Part shown: piece after piece, positions 6,501 through 60,590 of the stretch | Layout: each line of letters starts with the position of its first letter | Position numbering within the stretch: position 1 is the first letter of the stretch | Source of the DNA: Protula sp. h YS-2021 | Taxonomy: Eukaryota > Annelida > Polychaeta > Sabellida > Serpulidae | DNA: 64,000 bases | Direction: 5' to 3' | Assembly (NCBI GenBank): GCA_949752745.1 | Contig: OX457026.1 | Span: 25,333,561 to 25,397,560 of the forward strand | Program-made: the position numbers and the translations under genes | The notes under the pieces: model-generated | The model's input: only the letters and a program-made list of their open reading frames with translations | What the model was told of the DNA's origin: nothing | Database searches by the model: none

Positions 6501-9500
6501 ATACGTGTTTTTTGTCCAATTTCTGTCCATTGCATATCAGGCATCTCGCTATTCAACACCTGGGAGAAGTAAACATTTTACCAAACTAATAACCTCAAAG
6601 AATTTTGACTATTTATTAAAGAAGTAAAGGGAACAAAAAGAAACAGTAAGATTTGTTTGTTTGTTTACATTTTGTTTTGTTTGGTGGCAGGTATATTTCA
6701 GCCACACATAGAGTACCTGCTCTGCCTGAGTACACCCGTCGACATCGTTCTGCTTGGCGTCAGCTTCGCCAAGCCCCAGCAGCACGGCTGGGCGCGTGGC
6801 GAGCGCGGCGAGATGCACCTGCTGCCCGACCCGCTCTTCTCGCTGCCCACCGACGCCGTGCACATGACGTGTGTGGCGAGCACGGCTCAAGGTCGTGTTT
6901 TCATGGCCGGCAAAGATGGCTGCCTCTATGAGCTTATCTATCAGGTGCTTTTTTTTTCTCTTGTGATCACGTTTGCTCTTCGCTAAAGAGATTATGCTCT
7001 ACGTAGTAACACACAAACACAAATGGCAAACGTCTACAAACGAAATTGCTAGCAACCTGTCTCCAAAATAATTGCTAGACAGGAAGGTATTTGGTATTAA
7101 ACAAACGAAATGATTGAAATGGATTTAATGAATAAAAAAAAAGAATTATTTTAAATTTAAGTAGTTGAATGAGTCACTGCGACTCTTGTCCCTAAAAGAG
7201 GTTATTTTTTAGGCTGAGGAAGGCTGGTTTAGCCGGAAGTGCAGGAAGGTGAATCACTCGACGAGTAAGCTGTCGTACGTCATACCGTCCTTCCTCAACT
7301 TCTCCTTCGTCGAAGATGGTACGTTGCCTGGCTTGTGGGGAGAGAGAGAGAGTGGGGGGGGGGGGGGAAGGGTTCGGAAGTAGAGGAAGAGAGAGAGTTG
7401 GGGGGGGGGATATGGAAGTAGAGGGAGAGTGGGGTACGGAAGTAGAGAGAGAGAGAGTGGGGGGGGGGGGGAGTACGGAAGTGGAGGGAGAGAGAGAGTA
7501 CGTTTTTGTATGGCCTGTGTAGAGAGATGGAGGTTGTGGGGGTACGGAAGTAGAGACAGAGAGAGAGAGAGTTGGGGTGGGGGGGGAGGGGTCGGAAGTA
7601 GAGGGAGAGAGAGAGTGGGAGGGTACGGAAATAGAGGGAGAGAGAGAGTACGTTCTTGTATGGCCTGTGTAGAGAGATGGAGGTTGTGGGGGTACGGAAG
7701 TAGAGACAGAGAGAGAGAGAGTTGGGGTGGGGGGGAGGGGTCGGAAGTAGAGGGAGAGAGAGAGTGGCAGGGTACGGAAATAGAGGGAGAGAGAGAGTAC
7801 GTTCTTGTATGGCCTGTGTAGAGAGATGGAGGTTGTGGGGGTACGGAAGTAGAGACAGAGAGAGAGAGAGTTGGGGTGGGGGGGAGGGGTCGGAAGTAGA
7901 GGGAGAGAGAGAGTGGGAGGGTACGGAAATAGAGGGAGAGAGAGAGTACGTTCTTGTATGGCCTGTGTAGAGAGATAGAGGTTGTGGGGGTACGGAAGAA
8001 GAGGGAGAGAGAGCATTCTTGTATGGCTTGTGTAGAGAGAGAGGTGGGTTGGGGTACGGAAGTAGAGAGTACGTACGTTCTTGTATGGCTTGTCGAGGGG
8101 ATGGGATTGAGAGAAAGAGAGTACGCTGTCATATGGCTTATACGCTGACATGCATACGGTTACAGATGCTTTGGTACAGTTGGTGGTGGATGACACACGA
8201 AATATACTCTACGCACGCTCTGAAAAGGGTACGATACAGGTGAGTGCGCCTACGTCATCTGTTCCTGTGTTTACGTTATGTGCTGACGTCACGTGCGTTC
8301 GTGTTCCATGTAAATATAGTGTTAAAAGATATTGCTGTTCGTAGATGCCGTGAGTTACCTACAGACCTGTATTTCTCAACGACTTTTGCTGGTCTGACGT
8401 CATATTAAGTGAGAAAGCTAGCTACCTGATGCATACCACTGTTTACTGCTTACGCAGGTCTATGACTTGGGACAAGACGGGCAGGGCCTGGCCAAGGTGG
8501 CCGCCATCTCTCACCAGACCACGCTCAACAACGCCACTCTCCTCGCTAAGTAAGCACTCCCCTTCCTCCCGCCCCCCCCCCCCGCTACCAGTCCTCCTCC
8601 CCCCCCCCTACACCGCTACCACCTCCCTCGTCTTCTACCTTCCTGAGCTCAAATCATACTTCAGTGGAATTCCATCGAATCTGCATTATCTAAAATGTTC
8701 TAATTTCTGCTTTTTATTTTGTCAGAAATTTGAAAAAAAGTACGCCATGTCTTCGTAAATATTGATCTTCATGTGTGTTCACAAGACAACCTATTTAGAG
8801 AAAAAATGTACAAGATTTATTTTACTGAAGGAGCATTGACAAGTCAAGCTTCACACCATTGGTTAGCATCCATCCAATCACAAGCTCAGAATCCTCGAAC
8901 GTGCATCTCGTGGCTGTGACGCAATCAGGTGAATGTGAAAAAGGTCTTATATTATAATCGGGCGTGCTCATTGATTTCGAAATGTGAAAAAAAAATTGAA
9001 AAATCTTTGTTGCAAATGTTGCATTATATATGTTCCTTTAACTTTGCTTTTAAGTAAAGCCACGTAAATATCAGTGAGTATTGTGAAATGTAAGAGATTC
9101 ATTTGTCCGTAAGAAAAGGGACGGCAATTTGCTGCTTCGTGAAGCGCATGTCCAAGGACATACGGCCCTGTGTTGTAGGCATCCGGCTGTACTTCACCAC
9201 CAGCCCGTTCAATGACAACCGTGGCCGTCCCAGCATGCTCTCCATGGTCCACGTGCGCCTGCCTCCGGGCTTTTCCATGAGCTCTAGCGTGCAGAAGCCC
9301 AGCCGAATCCACAAGGCGCATTACTCCAGAGGTATTGATGCCCGCATACACAATACGCATTACTCCAGAGGTAATGATGCCCACATACACAATGCACATT
9401 ACTCCAGAGGTAATGATGCCCACATACACAGTACGCATTACTCCAGAGGTAATGATGCCCACATACACAGTACGCATTACTCCAGAGGTAATGATGCCCA

Positions 9501-12500
9501 GATACACAATGCACATTACTCCAGAGGTAATGATGCCCACATACACAGTACGCATTACTCCAGAGGTAATGATGCCCACATACACAGTACGCATTACTCC
9601 AGAGGTAATGATGCCCAGATACACAATGCACATTACTCCAGAGGTAATGATGCCCACATACACAGTACGCATTACTCCAGAGGTAATGATGCCCACATAC
9701 ACAGTACGCATTACTCCAGAGGTAATGATGCCCACATACACTGCGCATTACTCCAGAGATGATGATGCCCGCATACACAGTACACATTACTCCATAGGTA
9801 ATGATGCCCACATACACAGTGCGCATTACTCCAGAGGTGATGATGCCCGCATACACAGTACGCATTACTCCAGAGGTAATGATGCCCACATACACAGTGC
9901 GCATTACTCCAGAGGTAATGATGCCCACATACAGAGTACGCATTACTCCAGAGGTGGTGATGCCCACATACACAGTACGCATTACTCCAGAGACAATGAT
10001 GCCCGCATACACAAGGCGCATTACTCCGGTATTAATGATCAACACCCACATCCGTAAAGTATAATGTTGTTCCAGAGGCAATGATCCCCTCCGACATCCA
10101 CAAGTCATATTATTCCAGAGGTAATGATCCCTCCAGCCACATCCTCAAGGCGCTTTACTCCATAGATGCCGATACCCACTTACATTCAAACGTCCAATGC
10201 CGCCATGCACATGTTTCAGAGATAACGAAATCATCCTCATCCACAGCGCTCATTCTTCAGAGGTAACAAAAACTCACCAAACCTCCTTTGACTGCAGGAG
10301 TAACAATACCCACCAACCTCTGTAATCTCTAAAATCCACCAGCCTTCTGTTATTTCTGGATAAGAAAACCCATCAACCTCCAACCGTTACTTCAGGGCTA
10401 ACAAAACCCACGGACCTCCACCTTTTACTTCAGAGCTAACAAAACCCATCGACTACCAATTATTACTTCAACGCTAACAAAACCCATCAACCTCCACCTT
10501 TTACTTCAGGGCTAACAAAACCCACGGACCTCCGACTTTTACTTCAGAGCTAACAAAAGCCACCAAACATCTTCCTGTTACTTCCGGGGTAGCAAGACCC
10601 GCTATCACTTGCATATTTCAATACATTTGATAGCCACGTTTTATGTGCGCTTAAATAATCATGGACTTTTAACAAATACTAAAATAGCTGACGTTTCACT
10701 GATTGTGACACTCTCCAGGCACGCTGCTGTTGGCTTCGAGACAGACAGAGGACACGGAATTACTGTGGACAATCTCCAGTGACTCCTTTCCCTTCCAAAA
10801 AGTGCTCAGGGAAACATACGTAAGTTTTTTTTCCTGCTCATTGTACTAACAGGTTAACAGGATCCACATGCGATTATTCTTCTCTCCTACTGTATGTTAA
10901 AGATGTTTGAAGTATTGCGAAAAATTTATTTAGTATTTATTTATTTATTCAGTCAGTATGTTTTAAGTTAGTGTTCTGAATAATCCACTTGCCTTGCAGG
11001 AGACGCTGGGGCTAAGCGGCAATACGTGGGCATTGGCTGAAATCCCGTCAGCTGATGTGTCACATGACGTCGGTCGGCCACGCCCCCCTGCCGTTGTCAC
11101 ACAGCATATGGAGAGCGATCGCAGATTTGTCCTGCTCAATCCCAATGTATGGTTTACTCTCTTTTTTTTTCGCCTCCCAAAGTGGTCTGTCGGTTTGGCT
11201 GTTGACTGCCCGTCTGTCCAACTGGAGTCGGCTGTTAATGTCATCCTGATAATCCCTTTCCGACGATATTTAGTATATAGATTACCTAAAGTAGTTCGTA
11301 GGGGCACATTATTTTTGTTTTGACCTTGACCCAGTTTTGGATTTTCAGTTTCGGTTGGATGCTGTGCTGTCTACAGTGGCTTGTCTAGATTTAATTTTTG
11401 GTTAAAATTACAATAGTAAAAAGCTTTCCTAATAACTCATATTCCAGTAAGAACAAGCGGAAATAAATAATTTATTACAGTAAAACCCCGGATATGGAAA
11501 CCCCTCTGTTATGGACACCCCTGAATTATGGACAGCATTTTTCAGTCTGTTTTAAAACGCCATAGAGTTCTGTTATATCTAGACCCCTCTGTTGTGGACA
11601 CCCCTCTATTCACAACTAGGGACACTCTTTTTATCCCGTAAGTACGGTTAAACATTTAAAACAACCCCTCTTTTGTGGACAGTCAAATTGCTGTCCATAT
11701 TTTGTACGTTATGTAAACAACCCCTATCAGCTTGTTACTCGATAGTGTTTGTTTTTTGTTTTTTTTTCGCTTTTGTTTTCTGTGGGTATTGAGTACATTA
11801 TATTGAACATGCATGTAAAGACAATAGGGCTTATTACAAAAGATGTGTGCTTAAGAGAGAAGCTTTATACTACTAAACCCTATTGACATATGCTCCGTCT
11901 TTTAAAATGCGTATAAAGGAACAAGTAATTCATTGTCTTTATACTCAGTTAAGATGTTATACAAGATGTTAAGTCTGAATATCGGTGGTGCGAAAAGAAA
12001 ACGGAACGAACTTTCGCTATCTGATAAAGTTAAAATACTCACAGCTAGTGATGGAAAAAGTGTAAGAAAAATAGCCAAAGATTTTAGTTGTAGTTGTCAG
12101 ATAGAACTCAAATTAACAACAAAAAAACACCTCGAAATTAGGGACACCCCGCCATTAGGGACAAAATTATTCAGTCACTTTTTGTCCCTAATAGCGGGGT
12201 TACACTGTACATTATAGTGTGCTACAGTGTGGTCTTTCACTGTGGAATGCCATTTTCACGTTTATTGAACAATTATTGATATCAAGACTTACTTTTTGAT
12301 CTCAAAATTCATTTTTTGATATCAAGAATTCATTTTTGTTCTTTTAATTATATTTTTGATATCTCAGGATGTATTTTTGATCGCAAAAAATAATTTTTGA
12401 TATAAAAAAATATGTCTTGATATCAAAAATGATTTAATGATATCTAAAATCAAAAGTTTAAGTCTTAATAGCAAAATCTCACTTCCGAGCTTTATAAATT

Positions 12501-15500: not shown

Positions 15501-18500
15501 GTCCACGCCGTACCATCAGCCCGGCGGTCACGTGTCCTCCTCTGACGTCATCCACTCGGCCAGGCACAATGGAATCTGCCTCTACTTAGCAAGAATACTC
15601 AGGTGCGGTGATTCGGACACAATTTTCGCATTGATTTCCTCTAAACATTTTACATGATTTACGACAAAAAATAATTATGCAAGGCGCACTTTTATTTATA
15701 AGCTTTATTTTAATCATGGTCTTTCGTTCTTTCAGACCGCTGTGGGACAGACGTATTGTGAATGAATTTCCGGCACCGAAGGGCCAACAAAAATATGTAA
15801 TTAGTATACCAATTATTCTTTTTTATTTCATGTAGGGAAGAGTTTCACTGTGCATATCACGTGACATGGGCAACTAGAAAAGTTAACGTGATGGCTTGAT
15901 GACACAAGTTTGTTTATCGCGTGTTTACGAAGTCTTGAATACGCAGGAAGCGTAACGGGTGTGTTATTGTACAGCAGATGTCACGCACATTCTTTAAAAT
16001 TTTGAGCATTGTGAAATGGTGTGCTACATGGGAAGAACAGTCATATTGTATAAGCGTCACACGACCATTTTACATTGACATTAAGTGATGTGTTGATGAT
16101 AAGTTTGATTTTCTCAGTCACTACCTGGATTCCCTGGTGGGTGTATGAATTCCCTGATTCCCCAGACCCTCCTGTGTAGCCCTTATCTTATGCTCTTTTG
16201 GCTGCAGTTAGTGAGTACCTTCAGCACAGAGGAAGTGAGCTTTGTTCTCAACCGTTTACTTGACTTACGGGAGTTCATGCAGCGCCACTCGCAGTTCGCG
16301 TCGCCTTTGCTTGCAGAAAGGTACAAAGTTCGTCTATTCGTGTATTGATTATTTTTTAAAAGAACTAAGGATTAGCATATTTATATCGTTTAAAGTAAGA
16401 AGTGGAGTAAATCACATGACGAAGTGGGAAAGTGTCTGGGAAAAGCCAAAAGTGGAATACTTTTCTAAGTCTGTTATATTTTATAAAAAAAAAACTATCC
16501 ATGGAAATGTGGCTTTGCATTCCTGTATTGGTGATTTCTGGCTGGCAGTTTACAAGCGTCGCAGAGCGTGGTCGGGAGACCGTCGGTGGGAGGGCGGGTA
16601 GACGCGACCGACGAACAGACCAGGCGCAGGTGTCAAGGTATGTCCCCACACCTGATCATCGTTTATAGCACACATACCAGTGACCTCTCACCACCGCCTA
16701 CGATGATCCCTTATACGTAACACAGTTAACACAGTCTAGTATTTAGCTATCACTCTGGCATAGACAATTGTTCGGGCAGCACTACTGAAACTAATTTCGA
16801 GCCTGTGTTCCGCAGTGCTGCCACTTAATACTTTAATTTAAGTATGATACTTTATTTCGAGGTAAGTCCGAAATGAGACTTTATTGACACTTTTTATACT
16901 TGATTGATACTTTATTGGATGCTGATACCTTTTGATACTTTTTAAAATTTTTATTTTGCCTATTTTTTTATTTATTTCTTATAATACCCCTTAAAAATTT
17001 GATATATACATTTTTTCATATATATTTTTTTGTTTATATTTTTTAATTATTAGTTTTTGAAAGCGAATGGGAACTAGTTGGATGTATTATTGCTTTAAAA
17101 CACGTGCAACAATTTTGTCGCATTCTTTTTTAGTATCGGAAAATTTGTACAGCTATGTAACCAAGTTTCTTATTTTGACCTTTACAGTGTTGCCACATCA
17201 TCCTTTTTTAAAAGGATTATCCTTTTTTTTAAAAAAGCCCGATTTTATCCTTTTTTTATCCTTAAATACTTTTTTTTATACTTTTTTCAAAATTTCATCC
17301 TTTTTTTATACTTTTTTTTCGCTTTTCATCCTTTTTTTTATTTTGATACTTTTTTTTTCATTTTCTTTTTTCGTTCAAAATATCATTTTTTCCTAATTAG
17401 TTATATGTTTTTTTTTTTTCTGCTATAATTTTTTCTCACCCTAGTCATAATCTATGTTAGGCCATAATATTAACCGCTCTTACACTGTATGTGTATGTAA
17501 TTTCCAACTTTTTTGCATTGTTGCATTGTTAAAATCAATACATCTGTAGAGAAAGGGTATTTTTTTCATGGAATTGAAACATATATTCTGTAAACGTATT
17601 CAATGTCTTATCACACTGTAAAATATCCAGTATTCTAAATGATGTTGAGTAGTTTTTAGCCCAGCTTACGTTACACGTAAGCTCGGGTATTCCTATCGGT
17701 TTGCGGGCGGCGTCCGTTAGTTAGTTAGTTCGTTAGTTAGTTGTTTATTTAGTAAACTTTGATTCAAAATGCATCTCTTCCTACAGTTTTGATCCGATGT
17801 CATTTATTTTTGGTATGAAGCATCCCTAAGGGGTCATGCATACGGCTTGTGCTTTTTTAGTCGATCGGGTGATTTTTTGAATTTTTGGCGAATTTTTGAA
17901 GAAAAAATTTTAAAATGTATTTCCCCCTACATTTTTTATCCGATTTGATTTATTTTTGGTATGAGGCACCACTAAAGGGTCACGCATACGGCTTGTGCTT
18001 TTTTAGTCGATCGGACAATTTTTGTATTTTTGGGGAGTTTTTTAAGCAAAAGCGAAAATAATTCAAAATGCATCTACTCCAACAATTTTGATTCGATGTC
18101 ATTTATTTTTGGTGTGGTGCATCCCTAAGCGATCATGTATACGGCTTTTTTGGTTGATCGGATGGTTTTTGAATTTTTAGGGAATTTTTGAAGAAAAATT
18201 TTTTAAAATGTATCTCCTCCTACATTTTTGATCGGATATCATTTATTTTTAGTATGAGGCACCACTAAAGGGTCGTGCATACGTTTGTGCTTTTTCAGTC
18301 GACAGTTTTTGTATTTTCAGTGAGTTTTTGAAGAAAAAACTTCAAAATGCATTTCTCCCTACAGTTTTAATCAGATTTCATTATTTTTTATATGAGCCGT
18401 CTCTAGGGTGTCATGCATACTGCTTGTGCATTTTGAGTAAACGCAAGTTAAATGAACTTGCGCAGTAGTCCCATTTAACAATCGCGCATCCATGCAAGTT

Positions 18501-21500
18501 ACATAAACATGCGCACTGGTCCAAAGTAAGCACCGCGCATCGATGCAAGTTAAATAAACATGCGCACTGGTCCGAAAAAAGAACCACGCATCGACGCAAC
18601 CTAAACAAACATGCGCACTGGTCCGAAATGCGAACCGCACATCGAGGCAAGTTAAATAAACATGTGCACTGTTCCAAAATGCGAACCACGCTTCAGCACA
18701 AGTTAAATAATCATGCGCACTGGTGGAAAATGCGAACGGCTCATCGACGCAAGTTAAATAAACATACGCATTGGTTCGAAATGTGAATCGCGCATCGACG
18801 GAGTATAAATAAACAAACAAACTGGTCAGAAATGGGAACCGAGCATTAACGCAAGTTGAAAAAAAAACATGCCCACTGGTCCTAAATGCGAACAGCTCAT
18901 CGATACAAGCTAAATAAGCAAGCACACTGGACCAAAATTAGCACCGTGCATCAACGCAAGTTAAATAAACATGCGCACTGGTCCAGAATAAGAACCGCGC
19001 ATCAAATCAAGTTAAAGAAATATGCGCAATGGCCTGAAATAAGAACCGCTCATCGACGCACGTTAAATAAATATGCGCAGTGGTTCGAAATGCGAACCAC
19101 GCGCCAGCTCAAGTTAAATAAACATTTACATTGGTCCAAAATAAGCACCGCGTATCAACGCAAGTTAAACTTGCAAACTGGTCCGAAATGCGAACCGCGC
19201 ATCAGCGCAACCTAAAGAAACTTGTGCACTTGTCCGAAATGCGAACCGCGCATCAGGGCAACCTAAGGAAACTTGTGCACTTGTCCAAAATAAGTACCGC
19301 TATCAACACAAGGTAAATAAACATGAGCATCGGTCTGAAATAAGAACCGCGCGTCGACGCAAGTTAAATAAACATGCGCACTGGTCCGAAACAAGAACCG
19401 TACAACAACACAAGGTAAATAAACCTGCGCACTGATCCAAAGTAAGAACCGCACATCAACACAAGGTAAATAAACATGCGCAGTAAACATGCTAGAATTG
19501 GTCCGAAATGCGAGCGTTGTTCGAGTGTCTCTGTGGCAGACTATTCAGTCTATCAGATATACACAAAATCTGTTTCCCATGTTTCTGGGAAACAGATCTT
19601 TGTATGCATTTATCGGGCTATGTTCTGGTCAGGTGCTAAATTAATTATTGAGCTAGCTCTTTGCCGTCTCATCCTTTGAAGTCTAATTTTTCAGGGAAAT
19701 TCCCTTGCTCATGCACGCTTGAATTGATCTTATTACTTTTCGAAGTCCCAGCTGCGTCTCATCCTTTGAAGCCTAATTTTTCAGGGAAATTCCCTTGCTC
19801 ATGCACGCTGTAATTGGTCTTATTGCTTTTCGTAAGCTGGGACTTTGTCCTTGGACAAACTTGTTATTTCTTGAATGATTTTCAATAACTTCATTCTGTA
19901 AGTTTGAGTTGCATGTCCCTAGGGACCATCGATAAAGTACGTACGCACCTTTTTTTTTTAGACCAGCCGACCATGTCGGGCTGGTCTTATCACATCAATA
20001 GAGGGGTATCCGTCGTCTGTATGTACGTATGTATGTGTGTAAACTTTTACTTAAATTAAAATGCTTCTTCTCCCCAGTTTTGATCGAATTCCTCTAAAAT
20101 TTTAAACGAATGTTCTCCAGGTAGGCCTCTCTTTAAAAATTTTTTTTTGGCGATCCGCCAAAAATTGGCTAAATGGGGGGCATTTAAAATTTTTCGGTTG
20201 CCAATTTTCAAAATGGTTCTTCTCGCACAATTTTGATCGGATTCCTTTCCAATTTTGATCATTTATTCTCTAGGTAGGCCTATCTTGAAAAATTACTTTT
20301 TTTGGCGATCCACTAAAAATTGGCTAAATGGGGGCATTTAAAAATATTTAGTACCAATTTTCGAAACTCTTCTTTTGGCACAATTTGACCGAATTCCTTT
20401 ATAAATTTGTAAAGTACAATCAGGTATGCAAATATTTTTCAGTCGCTTTGAAAACGAGCATTATAAATTCAGGGTTCGCGTTGGCGGGGTTTTTGTCCAC
20501 TTTTTGGGCATTCTTTTACGAAATGACTCACTTTTTCGGAACCCACAGAGTTTTTCTGGAACTAACTTAGTCACACTTTCCCTTTTTGACTCACTTTCCT
20601 GAGAACCCAGCGCGAACCTTGAAATTACAAAAAAATGATACAATATGATTAACATTAATGTTTTCTCGATCTTCAGCAAAATATGAATTATCCTTTTTTT
20701 CATACTTTTTTTTTCTCAAATTTATCCTTTTTTATCCTTTTTTTCATCCTTTTTTTTCTTGACGACTCCGTGGCAACACTGCCTTTATATATATAATAAT
20801 TAACAGTTACAACATAAAACATTCACTTACAAATTAGACCAATCAATCAAAATCCGGAGAAAATCTTTCAAAAGCAATTACAGCACAGAACAATAGAAGA
20901 ATACATAAAATTAGAACAATAGAAAATCAAACTTGTGAACCACTGCACAAAAACAAAATCACGGTAAAAGTTGCAGTTATGAAGTACTCTAATCCATCAA
21001 ATGCAGTTTTTGTGAAATACAATAGAAAAAATTGAAAATATTTAAAAATTGTGCAGGACAATTTAAAAATTGTCCGCAAGTTGGATTTAAAAACGGGCCG
21101 ACCATTTAAAAATGGGTCGCCCATTTATAAATGGGCAACCCATTTTTAAATGGTTGGCCCGTTTATAAATTTAAAAACTGTGCAGCACAATTTATAAATT
21201 GTGCAGATTTAAAAACTGTGCCCAACATCTTGTGAACCACAGCACAAAAACAAAATCACGGTAAAAGTTGCAGTTATGAAGTACTCTAATCCATCAAATG
21301 CAGTTTTTGTGAAATGCAATAGAAAAAATTGAAAATATTTAAAAATTGTGCAGGACAATTTAAAAATTGTCCGCAATTTGGATTTAAAAACGGGCCGACC
21401 ATTTAAAAAATGGGTCGCCCATTTATAAATGGGCAACCCATTTTTAAATAGTCGGCCCGTTTATAAATTTAAAAACTGTGCAGCACAATTTATAACCCAT

Positions 21501-24500
21501 TTTTAAATAGTCGGCCCGTTTATAAATTTAAAAACTGTGCAGCACAATTTATAAATTGTGCAGATTTAAAAACTGTGCCCAACATATATAGGTATACATA
21601 TGTGTCTGTTTAAGCACCCAAAAGGTATTTAAGCTCCTAGATGGAAGGGTCTAATGTACTGCCGTAATTTTGTGTGGGGAGGAGTTTGAAGCAAAGCATA
21701 CGCAATTTGTTCAGGCGGAAAAGGAAAACTGCTAAATTTGGGCATACATCCTTTATGTTTGTCAAATTAACGTTCCCATTGGCATATTATGTCATTGTTC
21801 ACATATTTTCACAAAAAAGTACTTTATTTTCAGATGTTCTTAGATTTTTGGGGCATTTGTGACCAGTTTGTTTGCACTTTATATATACTTTCTTGTCCAA
21901 TAAATAATACTTTATTGATAGTTTATTTCGGATCTTGAGGTACTTTATTTACACCCCTTTGATACTTTTTTTTGACATTTTTGGAGTAGCAGTACTGGTT
22001 CCGCTCGTCCTGAGTTTTGCAAATTCGCCAAAGCTGGAATAACGTTTCGATCACATTGCGATTTCCACATAGCACAAAATCGTCTGAAAATTACGCCCGT
22101 CTTTCAGTATATTGTCTTACGTCAGTTAGCGCGTCGATTCGGTCTACGGTCGAGTTGTTTCGAAATCAGGTTATATCCGAGTCGAAGTCATTACCAAATT
22201 GGCCAAGATATGCCCAAAATTTTTGGTCAAGTCGCACCCATGTATTGTCGAGTCGTACACAATAATATTTTAGATATATGAATGAAAACTTCTCGTTAAG
22301 GTCATTGTTTACGTAGTTCCTTCATTTACGTGAAATTTGTTGCCACTAACAATTTAAAATGAAAATATATACATACTAATCTACAATTTAAACACGAATT
22401 TCAACAACAGCTATATAATATTATTGCAAACTGGATGAATTACATTTTAAAGACAGCAGCCATTTACACTTTTTTTGCGGGGTGGGGGGAAGGTTACTTT
22501 CACGTTTGGTGACTCTAGCATAGCCTGTGTTTGCCTCGCTACCGCCATCTTTGTTTTTTTTTTTTTTTTTTTTGCTTACAGCGGAGGCGGAGAGCCAGGA
22601 GGCGGCGTCGCTGCGACACCTACAGGCGCTCATGGGCCGTGTGTGCGAGGCGCTCGGACTGTGGAGCATCCTCTGCGAGCACCAGTTCCACGTCGTCGTG
22701 GCGTCGCTGAGCGCGGACCAGCAGAACACGCTACGCAGCATGGCCTTCCGCGATCTCGCCACTTCCGGCAAAGAGGTAATTATCCCGCTCTTGCCCCCCG
22801 GGGGGGGGGATGGGATCCAAGGGTAAAACTTTTGTGGGTGAAATTACCGAATGGTGAGTTTTATTTTATAAATGAAATTGCTTTGTGAATCCACTCGAAG
22901 TCCCATTTCCTAAACTTGCAGATATATTGTGTTACTAATACTGATGCTATAGTAGAACATTTGCTGATACAAATCTATGACGAGGTGGCGGTGCGGTCTG
23001 CTGTGGTTGCAGGTATCCGGGGTTCTGATCACAGCCCTCATCAACATGTACATCGACGACAACGCGGCCACGGACGCCATCAGCGAACGCCTGCGTGACG
23101 TCTGCCCCACGCTCTACAGTGTCGAGGACGCGCTCTGCTCAAAGGTACGTGCCGGCAACGTCACGGGCACCTGCTGCCGAGGTACGTGCCGGGAACGTCA
23201 CGGGCACCTGCTGCCGAGGTGCGTGTCGGGGACGTCACGGGCACCTGCTGCCGAGGTACGTGCCGGTATTGTATCCAGCGTACCTGTCGGGGACATCCTG
23301 GACACCTTGTTCTTCGACCTACGTATCAGCGACGCACTTGACATCCTTTTCTCTGTAACGTATGTGTTAAGCACTCACTAGAAACCCCCCCCCCTCCCCC
23401 TACCTTTTCCAAGGCACACGCCTGGTCTAAGGACGCCTGCTGCCCGAAGGTAGGTATCAGGGATAATCTGTAAGCCCCGTGCTCCGGCGCGCATTTCGGG
23501 AACGTTCGGGAAACCCTCTGCCGAAAGGTGCGTCCCAGAGCCGTTTTGGACAGCCATTTGTGTGACGTATCCGGCCGTTTCCGAATGCTTGCCATAGATT
23601 GTTTCGCAGAGACTGATTGGCGCCGTACTTAATTGCAATACTATTTGTAGAAAAGAAAAGAGAAAAAAGTGACTATAAACAAAAGGGAAGAGTCACATTG
23701 CATTCATGAACTTTTAAAATTTTCATTCATTTTCCCGCGAAATGTAACAAGAATTTGATGTTGATTCGTGCATACATTTACCATGATGCCACTGATGTAT
23801 GAGCGGGTCGTATCAAAAATGTACGTCAATTTCCTACGTCCTTGCATCGATGGGAAAACTCCAGTTCAACTCCTCACCCCCCCCCCCCCCTCCCCCCACA
23901 ACATAGTGGACTCGTCTTTATGGAATCATCCATGTGTAAGATTACGTATGCTGTCGCAATGCTAATGTGTCTCTTGTATTTGTATTGTAGGGTAATGAGA
24001 AATTGCAGACGGCTCGAACGCTCCAGAGCGCGGCTGAAAAAGAACGGCAGTTAGAAGAAGCCTTGAATTTATATAAACAAATTACGTCACAGCTTGACTT
24101 GCCTGTCGTCTGCAACCAGTTTGCGCAGGCGCGTTTCTTCCGAGGTGAGTAACGTTTGCAGTATTCTTGCAGGTTGCACTATTGTCTACCTTAGCTTTTG
24201 TTTAGTGTGAAGTGTGACCTTGCCTTTTGAGGTTGAGGACACGCGAAATAGAATGAAAATAGATCGAAATATGTGAGCCTAAAACAAACTAATACGCCAA
24301 AAAGGGATGTGATTAAAAAAATAAAAAATATTGGAGCAGGTGAATTGCAGAACGTGAAAAATGTGCATCAGAAGTTAATTGGACCGTGCAACAAAGCTCT
24401 GTGAGGACAGCATTGCATGAGTAACAGCAGTCAGCTGGTCTCGGAAAGTTTTTTAGAGGGTTCATTAGTTTATCTGTACGGTAGTGTCCTGTTTGCCAGT

Positions 24501-27500
24501 GGCAAGGCTTGTGTGTGGGAGCAGTTTTTGAGACAGCGCCTTGACGCGTGCCATGTTAGGCCTTCAAGTCGCTATCACAGGATGTGGCCGGTGTGTGCAA
24601 GCGCCAGAGCTTGAAAGATTTTTAAGGCTCACTTTAAGATACATTCTTTGCCAGCAAACATTCCTGAAATTTCAAGATGACAAAAACGTAATGCATGTGG
24701 AATGTGTGCAATATTTTTTATCATTAAAACTAAAAGAAAAAAATATTACACCACTTATTACAGTAATTCCGAAGAAAATTTCGTGATGTGCCCGACTAGC
24801 TGATTCCCTGTAACACATTAAATATTAACGCTATAGTCTCACCCTCTTCCCACTCTCTCTCTTTCTCTCAGTCTATTGTTTTAGGGGATGGGATGTGATT
24901 AGCGAAACAAGTTCATGGTTGCTTTGCTGTCGACCTTGACCTTTTCGCTGTTGACACTGACATTTTCCGTGTTGGCTTTACGTAGGTATCGTGGATCTGT
25001 CCCTGACGGCGGCCAGCAAGCGGGACCCTCAGGGCTTGGCGCTACACTACTACAAGAGCGGGCAGCCCGTGGACGACACCCAGGGCATCTACTTCTACAG
25101 CGCGAGGTCACTTCACCTACATTCAACACACCTCAGCTTGCGCCCTCTTTTTAGTCGCACCTCACAAAAATATAATAATAATAACAAATTATTTTTAACG
25201 TTTGACTTTACAAAAGCGGTGAGGTAAAAGTGTTTCAAGAAATTACTTAACGTTAAATCAACTGCATCTTTATTTGATGACTATCCGTATTTTTTTTCAC
25301 AGGATGGACTGTTACAAGTGCATCACGGAGACGCTGGACTACCTGTTGTCGACCAGCATGGCCCATCCGCAGGCCCCCAGCGTGCCCAAGTCTCCGGGGC
25401 CACCGCCCCCGCAGGACCCCAACAGGCTCACGAACGCGGAGGCTGACAAGTGTGTAAGGCCTGCCAAGTCATTCCGGGCACTGCTGCAAAAAGCAGAAGT
25501 ATTTGTAAGAAAAAAAAGCATGGCAATAAACAGAAGGATAAAAAAGTATAAGGTCACATTGCTGTTATGTCGTGCTGGAGTATTTGTGGTAAGGAGACAA
25601 ATGCTATACGAAATGTGTTTATTTTATAACTTAGCATGACTGCCACGTGTCCCGTCATCAACCATGTGCTAATATCTCATTCTCCAGGCAGAAGACGTCT
25701 TCTCATTGGCCCTGCAGTCACGTGACGAGATGTTCCACATGGCGCTGTATGATTGGCTGGTGGCGAAGAAGCTTCCGGAGAAGCTGCTGGAGGTTCAGTC
25801 CCCCTTCCTGGAGCCCTACCTGAAGCAGGCGGCCGCCCAGTACCCGGATCAGCTGACCACCCTGGATCTGCTGTGGAAGTATTACGAGAAGAGCAAGAAC
25901 TATTCGGCGGCTGCGCGGATCCTGGCCAAGCTGGCGGATCGCTGTGGGTGAGTGCCCTAATTCTAGGACACAAAGGGGACACTTCAAAAGAAACACTTCA
26001 TGCCATAGCTATTTATAGTTGGTTCTATCTATGGTTTTGTGATCGCGAAAGAAAAAAAAACAACTTGTAGTAATAAGGAATTAAGTGAATAAAGTGAAGT
26101 AGAAAGCGTAGATTCAGAGCAGCTGTCGGTTTACGAATGTGAAGAAAAATGACTTCAGGACCACAGAAGATAAAAGGGTAGTTGTGAATAAAGGTTTATA
26201 TATTGTGAAGTGTTAAACGCAACCACTTAAACTGAAAATATCGATTAATATTCCGGGAGCCTCTGTTTGAAAAAAAAGCAAAAGTTGGTTGTAATTGCTG
26301 TGTGGCTGAGGAAACTGCGTTTGACCTTGACAGCGCCGACCTGACCTTGGCGCAGCGCATGGAGTACCTGTCGCGGGCGGCCATGTGCGCCAAGAGCTCG
26401 GCGCTGAGCACTTCCGGCGGGCGCGAGGGCGAGTTCCTGCACGAGCTGGAGGAGAAGCTGGAGGTGGCTAGGCTACAGCTCCAGATCCTGGACGCGTTGC
26501 CAAGGCAACAAGGGCCTGGTCAGGAAATTCAGGAGGCCGTTGCTAGGCTGAATTCTGAACTTATGGACATCACGGCGGTGAGAGTCTTTTGTGTCGTAGA
26601 AACAAAGAAAGTGTGAGTGCGAATGGGGGGGGGGGTTGAGAACTTACAGTTTTCGAGGGGGGGGGGGGGGGGAGGAGAGGAGGGGGGTGGAGGGGGGAGT
26701 ATAGGAATATCATTAAGAGTAAATAGTAAATATGTGGCGTCACTTCTCTGTTGTATCCTTGGCAGCTGTACGGGGACTTCGCGGACAGGTTTGGTTTGGC
26801 GGAAAGTAAGCTGGCCATCATTCACTGCGCAGGTCACCACGACCCCACGCTGATAGAGACCTTATGGCAGGATATCGTTGACAAAGGTGAGACATGCGTT
26901 GATAGAAGGCACCTTACACTGTAAATATTACAACTATCAATCACGGTTCTTTATGTTAATTATATTTCCCCCGTAAAGGGCAAACATTATGTTTTTGTGC
27001 TTTCTGTGTAATGTTTGTGTCTGTTGTAGACATTTGATTTTGTTGACACAGTAACTCTCGAACCTAACATCGGATCAGTTTCAGACTTGGTGGGATTATG
27101 CCTCGGGCTGCTCCGACGGTTGGGATTGTACTTGACCTATATTACGCAACGCGTGACGTCATATTAGGTCAAAACCGTGTAAAATGCGTCATCAGTATAA
27201 CTTAGCGAAACGTCGGATCAGCTTCACACTTCGTAGGAACAGGCCTTGGGTAGATCCGACGGTTCATATTGTATCTGGTGTATAGAGCGCAACGTATGAC
27301 GTCATATGACGTTTTTATGTGTTGTACACACCAAACCTTAACAGAATGATTGTAGAGCAAGTCGGATCAGCAAATGTGGGTAGGATTATGCCTTGGGTGG
27401 GTTTCGCGGTTCACGTTGTATTTGGCATATATACCGCAACGCATGACGTCAAAACGTTTTGTTGACACTAGATAACTATCGAACGACAAGTCAGATCAAC

Positions 27501-42138: not shown

Positions 42139-43205
42139 AATCCGCGACAAAACGCCCAGCGACATAACGCCTCGCGACATAACGCCTCGCGATAAAACGC
42201 CTCGCGACATAAGGCCTCGCGACAAAACGCCTCAAAATGTAAAGTGCGACAAAACGCCTCACTCGTATAAACTCCCTATTTTCCTCCATTTTTCTTACTT
42301 TTTATCGTACACTCATTGTTCGCCTATTACACGTTTGTCATTGAACTTGCTTCTGAATGTTTGCTCGTACTGTTTTTCCATTTTTTCTGACATTTTTCCA
42401 CGCACAATGATTGCCCAGGATGAGATTGGAAATCCGCCCAGGAAAAGGGTTCGACGAGAAAACAAAGACCTACAACAGTGTCTACGTACTCTATGTCGTG
42501 ATCGTTTTGATGGCCGAAAGACTATTACTCAGTTTTTGCGCGGAATCGGTCACAACATTCGTTGGAAAGCAATCAATCGTGAGCATCAAGAAGGAGATGC
42601 GCAATAGACTGAACAACTTGGATATCACACCTTGGATTCAATCTGCGAAAGCTAGTGTACTAGTGTACTGTTCAGCAACACGAAAGATTGCAACCGAGCT
42701 GTTGAATAGTAAATATAGTGCACGTGTGAACTATGCATGTCAGATAAAGATGTAGTACAGTAAATACTTCAAGTCGAAACTATAGTGTAAAAATATATTT
42801 TTGCAATGGACAAAGCGTTACAGACATTTATACGTAGTGGAGTAAAGATTTCGAGTCGTTAATTTGGTGTAAATGAATGTACTTGCTATGGCGCACAGTT
42901 TTAACTTTGTTAGAGACATGCAGATGCAGTATAGTGAAGATTTCGAGTAGTAAATATCTTGTTAATATATCTGTGTGTTTGCTGTGTAATGAAACGCTCA
43001 TTTGTTAGCGAGGGCTAAATGGCAAAATTAAAATCACATTTAGAAAGTGGAATTATGTGTTTTAATTGTTGTTTCAAAAAGTGAGGCGTTTTGTCGCACT
43101 TTACATTTTGAGGGGTTTTGTCGCGAGGCCTTATGTCGCGAGGCGTTTTATCGCGAGGCGTTATGTCGTGAGGCCTTTTGTCGAGAGGCCTTTTGTCGGG
43201 ATACC
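42139..43205. mobile_element. Foldback-type element with 10-bp TSD
   Basis: Both termini (42139-42260 and 43080-43205) are inverted copies built from tandem 14-15 bp units of the type GCGACAAAACGCCTC and GCGACATAACGCCTC. The direct repeat GTTTTCCAAG flanks it at 42129-42138 and 43206-43215. The core holds two overlapping short frames, 42405-42607 (IGNPPRKRVRRENKDLQQCL onward) and 42411-42755, which look like one ancestral frame broken by a shift. I do not recognise the protein. The TSD length fits Mutator-like or foldback elements. Confidence 0.78.
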
Positions 43206-49324: not shown

Positions 49325-50146
49325 GCCATCCGAGATACGACCAAAGCAGTACTGATAAGCAATGCTAATATTATCCAATTGTTATTCGGATCGTATTTTT
49401 CTAATGGAAATTCAAACGCATTTAAAGCTCGAAATTTTTTCCATCTGTGGCAACGATGGAAAGTCCCTTGCGGAAAGTTGGTTCTCCGTTGAACATTCGG
49501 GCGGGAGGGAGGGAGGCAGGGAGGGAGGGAGGGAGGGACGGTTGTTGCCTCTCGTCTATGCATCTATGACACACACATTTAATGCTTGACACGTTGTTTG
49601 ATCTTTAAGTGAAACACATTTAATATACAGCTATGCATTTCACCTCGGATGGCCATTTTATGCACGCACTCTGGAGACAGGATTTGGTACATGAACGCAT
49701 TTTGTGATTTTACAAAATGGTCAATGAAATGTTAAGCCATCCGAGATACGACCAAAGCAGTACTGATAAGCAATGCTAATATTATCCAATTGTTATTCGG
49801 ATCGTATTTTTCTAATGGAAATTCAAACGCATTTAAAGCTCGAAATTTTTTCCATCTGTGGCAACGATGGAAAGTCCCTTGCGGAAAGTTGGTTCTCCGT
49901 TGAACATTCGGGCGGGAGGGAGGGAGGCAGGGAGGGAGGGAGGGAGGGACGGTTGTTGCCTCTCGTCTATGCATCTATGACACACACATTTAATGCTTGA
50001 CACGTTGTTTGATCTTTAAGTGAAACACATTTAATATACAGCTATGCATTTCACCTCGGATGGCCATTTTATGCACGCACTCTGGAGACAGGATTTGGTA
50101 CATGAACGCATTTTGTGATTTTACAAAATGGTCAATGAAATGTTAA
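49325..50146. repeat. Exact tandem duplication, 2 x 411 bp
   Basis: GCCATCCGAGATACGACC starts copy 1 at 49325 and copy 2 at 49736. I see no difference between the copies, including the variable GGGAGGGAGGCAGGGAGG tract. Both give the same translated ORFs. Either a very recent duplication or an assembly artefact. Confidence 0.93.
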
Positions 50147-52129
50147 GCCGTTTCGCATGCGATTCGGGTGACTAGCAGCGTCATCAAAGTACATTATCAG
50201 CAAAGACCTACTTATTTTTGGGTCAGACTTTCTGAAAGTAAATTTAGCAAGTATTTGGTAGGTACCAGAGGGTTGCTACACAATCCTGTTCGTAAAAAAG
50301 CGGATTGCGACAGGATAACAAAGGCAAAAAATCATGAATGTTTCAGGTTAAAAAAAAAAACAATGCACAAATCCTTTGCAGAAACATGTTTTGCAATAAT
50401 TTATAAGCTATGTATAAAAGCGAAGAGGGGTACCATGCAGGTTTCTTTTAGGTCTCCTGGTGCTTCACGTTTTGTTCGACGGCTCCATATGTAGCCTTAC
50501 GCCAGGTACACGCGGTTAGCATAAAAACGCTCTTGGCGGACATGCTCAAAATGGTTATTTTATGTCCTTTGAGAGATTGTCGAGTCTTGTTCCAGAGGCC
50601 TGGCTTTTGAGCGATTTGTAGGGATTATGGAGCGTGCTCTATTATGGCTAGTTTATGAGTAAATAGCATGTGTCAAGGGGGGTGCATTGTTGAAGACCTC
50701 TATGCACCCGAGGCTGTTATTAAGGGGTCTCATGAAATCGTACGAGCTTGTGTTGGTTTTTGCTATTCCTTGATGAGAACTTACCCTCGGAAAGGTTTGC
50801 CTATTTTTTCACGAAGAGATATAGTCTTTTACTCCTACCGGAAGAGCAGATTTATGTGAACTGACGCCAACGGATTGCATTGTCTTCTTTCAAACTAAGT
50901 TTCTGTGTGAACCCGTGGGTTGTGTTTGGTTACCATAGAAACGCGGTGGGCTAATTAATAAATTGAAGTATAGCTGGAGGACAGAGTAAAAAACCTCAGT
51001 TCCACAAAGCACGCTTAATGACTGGACGGAATCCCGACAGCGGAATATAGTTTTTGTGGCACGGTTTTGTCATTTCCGTTGTTATTTACCTGTACAAGTG
51101 CTGGAGAAGATATCTCGATCGACAAACATTAAAATTTTCCGACCACGAAAGCGATCCTTAACTAGAGTGTTTCTGGCGTTAGCAACGAATATATCCGCAC
51201 CACATTGTCTCATTCGCTTACGTATTATGTCGACTTTGTATTTAATTACACCACATTAATTGATTACCATTTTCCGTAGCGTGGAGTTAAATTGGTCCAA
51301 AATTACCACCCTTTGGAAAGAGGGTTGGGGCCCTTGCTCCTAAGTCAGGTGTATTTCATGCATATTTAGCTAAACCGGCTCTACCTGCTGTTAAGCGCAT
51401 TGCACAGATGTTTTATAATACCTTTAACAATAATTATATCCACACTTTTTGGTGAATTATTTAAAATGCCACATTGGCTTTCGCCCCTCCCCGCACCCAC
51501 CGTCACCCCTACCCATTGTTTCAGTTAAGTTCTCGCTAATCCTCAGCAGCACTAACTTGATATTATACCTGAGCATTGTTTGGAGGGAAACCCCACCTTC
51601 TCCCAATCAAACTACCACCCTCACCCCCATCCCCTCCCCCAGTGAAAGTATTGAATTTCTGCATGGTAAAGAGCTGAATAATTGATGATGATGCTTTTGA
51701 TAGACCGTATGAGGCTGAAACAAGCTTACCTGCTTTGCGTGACAATTATATCGCCGCTTCGCTGTTCTCACGCTTGAGCAACGCTGAGTAACACACAGCT
51801 GGCCCAGGGGTGGTGGGGGAAAATGATTTCAGTATGATGGCTCTTGTTTGGTTTTTCAAACCCCTTGTGTATTTATATAAATTATGCTTCAAAGAAAGCT
51901 GAAATATGCTATTTATGTTTCAATTATTGAGAGGTAGCGCTGGAAATAGTCAAAAAGAAATTGTTCTGCGTGAGGTGACACTTAACTATGGGTTTTGGCG
52001 AAATGGGAATGAAAGTTTCGCTGACGATGTATGAAAAATACAATGATTAAAAAAAAGTTTTAAATAAAAAATGCATAAGAAATTACTGCAGCATGACAAC
52101 AAAGTAAAAGCTATTTATTTTATGTTTTT

Positions 52130-60364: not shown

Positions 60365-60590
60365 TTTTTTTTTGGTATTCGGTGCATGAGTGCTCTGCTG
60401 TATTCGATGCGTGAGTGCTCTTCGGTGTTCGGTGCAGCGCTCTACTTCATTCGATGCGTAAGTTCTGTGCGGTGTTTGGTACATGAGTGCTCCGTAGTGT
60501 TCGGTGCGCCGCTCTGGGTCATTCGATGCGTTAGTGCTCTGCCGTGTTCGGTGCCTGAATGCTCTGTGTGTTGTACGTGGTATTAGAGAT
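60365..60590. repeat. Minisatellite of about 25 bp, eight to nine units
   Basis: Units such as GTATTCGGTGCATGAGTGCT, CATTCGATGCGTAAGT and a shorter GTGTTCGGTGCGCCGCTCT recur in an order suggesting a three-unit higher-order repeat of about 73 bp. Confidence 0.8.

Follow-up and report, generated by a model that had tools for sequence, protein, structure and literature searches.

Tandem copies of a 5' splice site appear to have built much of intron 10 in an animal NUP155 gene and recur at other exon ends of the genome

The stretch analyzed here (the window) comprises 64,000 nt of animal DNA (C3:25333561-25397560, in an 863-Mb assembly of 218 contigs), and a NUP155 gene on the + strand covers much of its first 29 kb. 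In intron 10 of this gene lies a 39-bp minisatellite whose units repeat the end of exon 10 together with its 5' splice site (donor). The gene itself was recognized by Pfam domains in ten scanned open frames (Nucleoporin_N in one, Nucleoporin_C in three, one of these just below the cut-off), and the draft protein obtained by joining the exons found 618 proteins at E <= 0.001. Among the best 120 listed of these, the set used for all homologue comparisons below, the closest NUP155 is that of Capitella teleta (57% identity), with other annelids and spiralians next; the protein of Branchiostoma belcheri is 49% identical to the draft. These matches suggest an annelid-like host, and amphioxus was rejected as the source. 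The draft model holds 25 donors and 26 acceptors, a few of which are uncertain.

Exon 10 (9179..9331, + strand) was modeled from its open reading frame (ORF), acceptor and donor; it ends in ...RIHKAHYSR plus one G, in phase 1, and joined to exons 11 and 12 it matches solved Nup155 chains with a best E of 3e-35. The exon-proximal 5' splice site GTATTG (9332..9337, +) was taken as the authentic donor, because joining it to 10719 yields at the junction (residue 51 of the aligned piece) a glycine that is shared by 119 of the 120 homologues. The acceptor AG lies at 10717-10718 and exon 11 at 10719..10819 (+), which leaves an intron of 1387 nt. An earlier note on this DNA had placed the end of exon 10 and the GT at 9332 correctly, but the position that it gave for the acceptor, 10718, is the last base of the intron and exon 11 begins one base later.

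Tandem Repeats Finder (TRF) reports the minisatellite at 9317..10027 on the + strand, with a period of 39, 18.3 copies and 91% matches. Self-comparison agrees, the match that spans the donor at 9332 scoring 85 where the best of 100 shuffles reaches 23, and the two results together bear out the proposal of the earlier note that the unit is the exon 10 end with its 5' splice site. Each unit consists of 15 bases of exon end and 24 bases of intron start. The exonic bases are near-constant over 18 units, with five changes of which four are one shared variant; AG/GT signals are present in the units, and the GT is retained in 16 of the 18 listed (the exon copy counted), having been lost at 9759 and 9993. 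Alignment of the units and reading of the frame show ten identical donors downstream of the first, AGAG/GTAATG every 39 bp (9371..9727, +; the slash marks the splice point). As the note had it, those at 9371, 9410 and so on to 9722 are uniform (all AGAG/GTAATGA), the first donor at 9332 reading AGAG/GTATTGA. It was also right that the exon frame stays open through the array with the ten donors in frame: their offsets are all multiples of 39, and all precede the first stop encountered on extending the exon 10 frame (9760..9762, +), 428 nt past the donor at 9332. The spacing after the donor at 9722 is 37, and donors from 9798 onward are therefore out of frame. Within the first ten units, identity is higher at a distance of three units than between neighbors (0.985 versus 0.934), which points to recent duplications of 117 bp.

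Beyond 10027 the array fades rather than ends. Windows of 78 nt scored against the 39-bp unit give 126-152 when they start at 9317-9941, then 84, 52, 67, 56 and 44, with 41 at 10214, 27 at 10253, about 30 over 10361-10564 and noise from 10565, while eight windows from elsewhere in NUP155 score 10 to 14. Decayed units with gaps are accordingly assigned to 10028..10360 (+), where the windows starting at 10019-10136, 10214 and 10253 beat all 100 shuffles and those at 10175, 10292 and 10331 did not. They are followed by a 38-bp array (10361..10564, +; TRF), which we regard as a more ancient and diverged stretch of the 39-bp array: its consensus scores 39 against the unit, a value reached by 2 of 500 shuffles (highest 47.5). 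Since similarity to the unit thus continues, falling from about 150 to about 30, as far as about 10564, most of the 1387-nt intron descends from its own donor, and up to nine tenths of it if the gaps are decayed units.

A second donor-derived array was found further down the same gene. The exon at 23013..23144 (+; modeled from ORF, acceptor and donor) ends at a donor AAAG/GTACGT (23145), after which 37-bp units of AG/GTACGT type carry CGAG/GTACGT and CGAG/GTGCGT (23145..23266, +; TRF 23143-23266). The donor-spanning self-match scores 69, compared with 21 at most in 100 shuffles, and because the period is 37 bp, use of these copies would shift the frame. The donors at 9332 and 23145 are the only two of the 25 in NUP155 with high-scoring copies that span the GT; for those at 8550 (0 of 100 shuffles), 7319 and 28660 (1 of 100 each) the matches are short and lie beside it. 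None of the 26 acceptors has a copy comparable to those of the donors, the best AG-spanning match, at 25303, being equaled by 1 of 100 shuffles. Two other NUP155 introns also hold arrays. Purine-rich nested repeats (149 bp and others) occupy 7370-8093, past the donor at 7319, from which their GTACGTT copies may derive; we considered this array as a third donor-derived case and do not claim it; the matches of 7319 do not span the GT. Arrays of 140 bp and 51 bp (the latter with 20.5 copies) lie at 17763-19482 in a long intron.

Arrays of the same anatomy occur at other exon ends of the genome. Pattern scans of the 863 Mb, covering a few donor spellings, gave 2005 matches (916 + 1089) for three AGGTRAGT motifs 28-58 bp apart versus 773 for the reversed motif, 227 versus 44 for the CAGGTAAGT pattern and 101 versus 36 for the GAGGTAAGT pattern; these counts are not independent, since matches overlap and large arrays dominate them. 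The listed places of the AGGTRAGT scan, all within the first 87 Mb of C1, were grouped into 19 arrays, of which 3 simple repeats were dropped and 16 fetched. The listed part of the second scan held 13 arrays, a pair of groups near C2:92.17 Mb being taken as one; all were fetched at their 5' side. The third listed 27, of which 3 were already included, 4 were fetched and 20 were left out. An array was called anchored when an open frame enters its first donor and its units repeat the exon end. By this measure 18 of the 33 fetched arrays were judged to start at a coding exon (L033-L035, L037-L042, L048, L052-L054, L056-L058, L061 and L063, with clear units in L035 beginning only about 180 nt past the donor) and 11 were judged not anchored, while 4 are unassessed at their 5' end (L036, L046, L060, L062).

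Seven of the 18 anchored exons have a match in the family or structure libraries, four of them above the Pfam cut-off: a biotin carboxylase N-terminal domain (L041, which we take to be pyruvate carboxylase), an integrin EGF domain of integrin beta (L035), a Slo-like RCK domain (L057, with the slowpoke BK channel at 3.5e-13 among PDB sequences) and, narrowly, the AAA domain of an AAA ATPase (L048). Below the cut-off are fn3 (L054) and SNF, of an SLC6-type transporter (L061, transporters among PDB sequences at best 4.6e-4), and PDB sequences give a weak match to ATG2A for L063 (0.029). The other eleven exons (L033, L034, L037-L040, L042, L052, L053, L056, L058) matched nothing meaningful in the libraries searched, L053 for instance having none among PDB sequences, and they are called on frame and repeat anatomy.

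For the question of frame, the two NUP155 arrays were added to these 18, and in each of the 20 the nearest downstream AG/GT of at least 2 bits was taken; L035 has no qualifying donor within 150 nt. The nearest donor is in frame in 9 of 20 arrays (p 0.19), and it is both in frame and preceded by an open frame in 6 (NUP155 intron 10, L034, L039, L041, L048 and L061), with the reservation that the phase is uncertain for some exons, most of all L039. In 13 of the 20 its use would shift the frame or truncate the protein. Judged by these reading frames, in-frame use of the copies is not general among the arrays, and since so few of them are in frame and open, the favorable frame in NUP155 intron 10 could easily be luck.

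Our results favor a boundary-spanning minisatellite of donors, of the kind called a mirage, in which the exon-proximal site at 9332 likely serves nearly all mRNA while the copies are ignored. The array probably arose as a side effect of DNA duplication and not as a device for changing the protein. It would have started when the 3' end of exon 10 and its 5' splice site were repeatedly duplicated in tandem; duplication, slippage or unequal exchange would then copy the unit and the intron would grow, with older, decayed copies pushed further downstream to form much of intron 10. The ten intact donors would be intact as they are young and homogenized, as the higher-order period of 117 bp suggests, and not by selection. 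The spliceosome would take the donor at 9332 and the copies would leave within the intron as ignored decoys. Decoy donors that must be silenced were the alternative offered in the earlier note, and they fit the results better than its principal suggestion, a ready-made device for length variation, although the choice of splice site is here inferred.

Four observations weigh against this interpretation. First, donor strength alone predicts downstream use. In a donor weight matrix of human type, the array donors score 2.9 bits and the first NUP155 donor 0.1, in agreement with the earlier claim that the copies pair with U1 snRNA at least as well as the first; both kinds carry T at +5, which that matrix rates as weak. 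The first donor would thus have to be favored otherwise than by strength, possibly through exon definition from the upstream acceptor, through nearness, or through first-come commitment during transcription. Second, by our list of periods, 13 of 20 arrays have a main period divisible by three (binomial p 0.004), a number that falls to 11 of 20 if the first TRF row is used for L033 and L063, where the listed period differs from it. Visual inspection of the 27 arrays of the third scan gave such periods for roughly one in three, 7 or 8 among the 25 or so that were readable. A weak frame constraint, or a bias to periods of 3n, may therefore exist. Third, the anchoring calls were made partly by eye, and L047, L050 and L059, which were judged unanchored, are also open into their first donor (81, 122 and 49 residues). 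Fourth, repeat units of human IFI6 supply alternative donors that are used, according to the accessible part of PMC4526556.

A wider reading, in which 5' splice sites are duplicated throughout the genome in an ongoing process that drives intron growth, seems doubtful to us in its full form: the arrays would bind U1 in multiples, the spliceosome would choose among many equivalent donors, and the six in-frame open arrays (NUP155 intron 10, L034, L039, L041, L048, L061) would give graded isoforms at low level. Slightly less probable still is the length-variation device, whereby the downstream donors would be used to produce NUP155 isoforms with 13n extra residues in the propeller. The ten in-frame donors without a stop before 9760, the higher scores of the copies, the IFI6 precedent and the possible excess of 3n periods would all suit it. 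However, insertions are absent from all 120 homologues at the exon 10/11 junction and within the 15 residues before it (positions 36-58 of the aligned piece), and most of the like arrays, including the second one of NUP155 itself with its frame-shifting period, would break the protein at the nearest donor, so that the claim of a ready-made device is not supported.

We consider it unlikely, and somewhat more so, that the copies act uncut as a platform that draws U1 snRNP near the exon, strengthening a weak first donor or blocking premature polyadenylation. The weak first donor and stronger copies of NUP155, and the recurrence of such arrays across the genome, speak for this; yet of the 18 other arrays with a next donor, 16 have first and next sites that differ by no more than one bit, in a sample that is biased because the search pattern demands strong copies. 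The first donor is weaker than the next in L048 and L056. Although assemblies are prone to collapse or expand tandem arrays, an assembly artefact is very improbable, as the DNA search found no place but this one (3 overlapping matches), on a 106-Mb contig, the variation and decay of the units follow an orderly pattern, and other loci have the like anatomy.

Outside these introns the window contains further repeats. A 411-bp tandem duplication at 49325-50149 (TRF, 2.0 copies, 100% matches) is either very recent or a duplication of the assembly; inverted pairs of short tandem arrays about 0.5-0.9 kb apart, at 42143-43198 (CGCGACAAAACGCCT / TTTTGTCGCGAGGCC) and 2386-2959 (GACAAAACCCCAATACG / GATTGGGGTTTTGTCC), resemble the ends of small mobile elements; and a 25-bp array lies at 60374-60566.

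Donor arrays of this kind amount to a natural experiment in which the spliceosome has to select one 5' splice site where near-identical alternatives lie 28-54 bp from one another. Invariable use of the first, even where it is the weaker site, as it is in NUP155, would mean that strength-only models fail and that proximity to the exon decides; any other outcome would mean that core genes carry built-in isoform noise. Twenty such exon ends were seen here, with frame-keeping as well as frame-breaking periods.

Donor repeats past an exon are also found in human IFI6 (6-16, G1P3), where the minisatellite unit is 12 nt. There the units downstream of the exon are reported to be used as donors (PMC4526556, citing Turri 1995, in the passages available), whereas use is judged unlikely here. 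Tandem duplication of AG/GT proto-splice sites has been described as a source of introns (Rogers; Gao and Lynch; Zhuo; as cited in the accessible part of PMC3087553); duplications that carry splice sites are common to both cases, but in ours an existing intron was lengthened and no new intron is shown. The splicing-linked minisatellites of C. elegans, as far as the part of PMC4039745 at hand describes them, were set aside as a different matter.

The closest likeness is to the mirages of amphioxus (Adh3, the globins BflGb6/BflGb9, TnC, PGBD5), which the passages available to us describe as minisatellite-like duplications of exon-intron boundaries that reportedly leave regular splicing undisturbed and have been suggested to seed new introns (PMC3087553, PMC3902484). 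In both, the tandem units span the boundary and many keep AG/GT, and the NUP155 unit of 39 bp, which straddles the exon-intron boundary, lies inside the reported mirage range of 10-160 bp (PMC3087553, same passages). The differences, within the same parts of these sources, are several. The host here groups with annelids and spiralians by its NUP155, in contrast to the cephalochordates in which mirages were reported, which we regard as a matter of discovery history and not a defining trait; amphioxus mirages also occur at 3' boundaries, unlike in this gene, where no acceptor has a comparable copy; and the present intron consists mostly of units, with arrays of this class found at many places in one genome. 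Searching by titles and the beginnings of abstracts, mostly outside the subscription literature, we found no report of donor minisatellites in annelids or genome-wide, and an annelid paper with intronic minisatellites (PMC12783039) has no boundary duplication in the passages seen. In conclusion, we place the NUP155 array in a known class, the mirage, in an animal group for which we found no such report and with an unusual reach. It would represent a route of intron growth that has so far been described, in the literature and passages accessible to us, for a few amphioxus genes.

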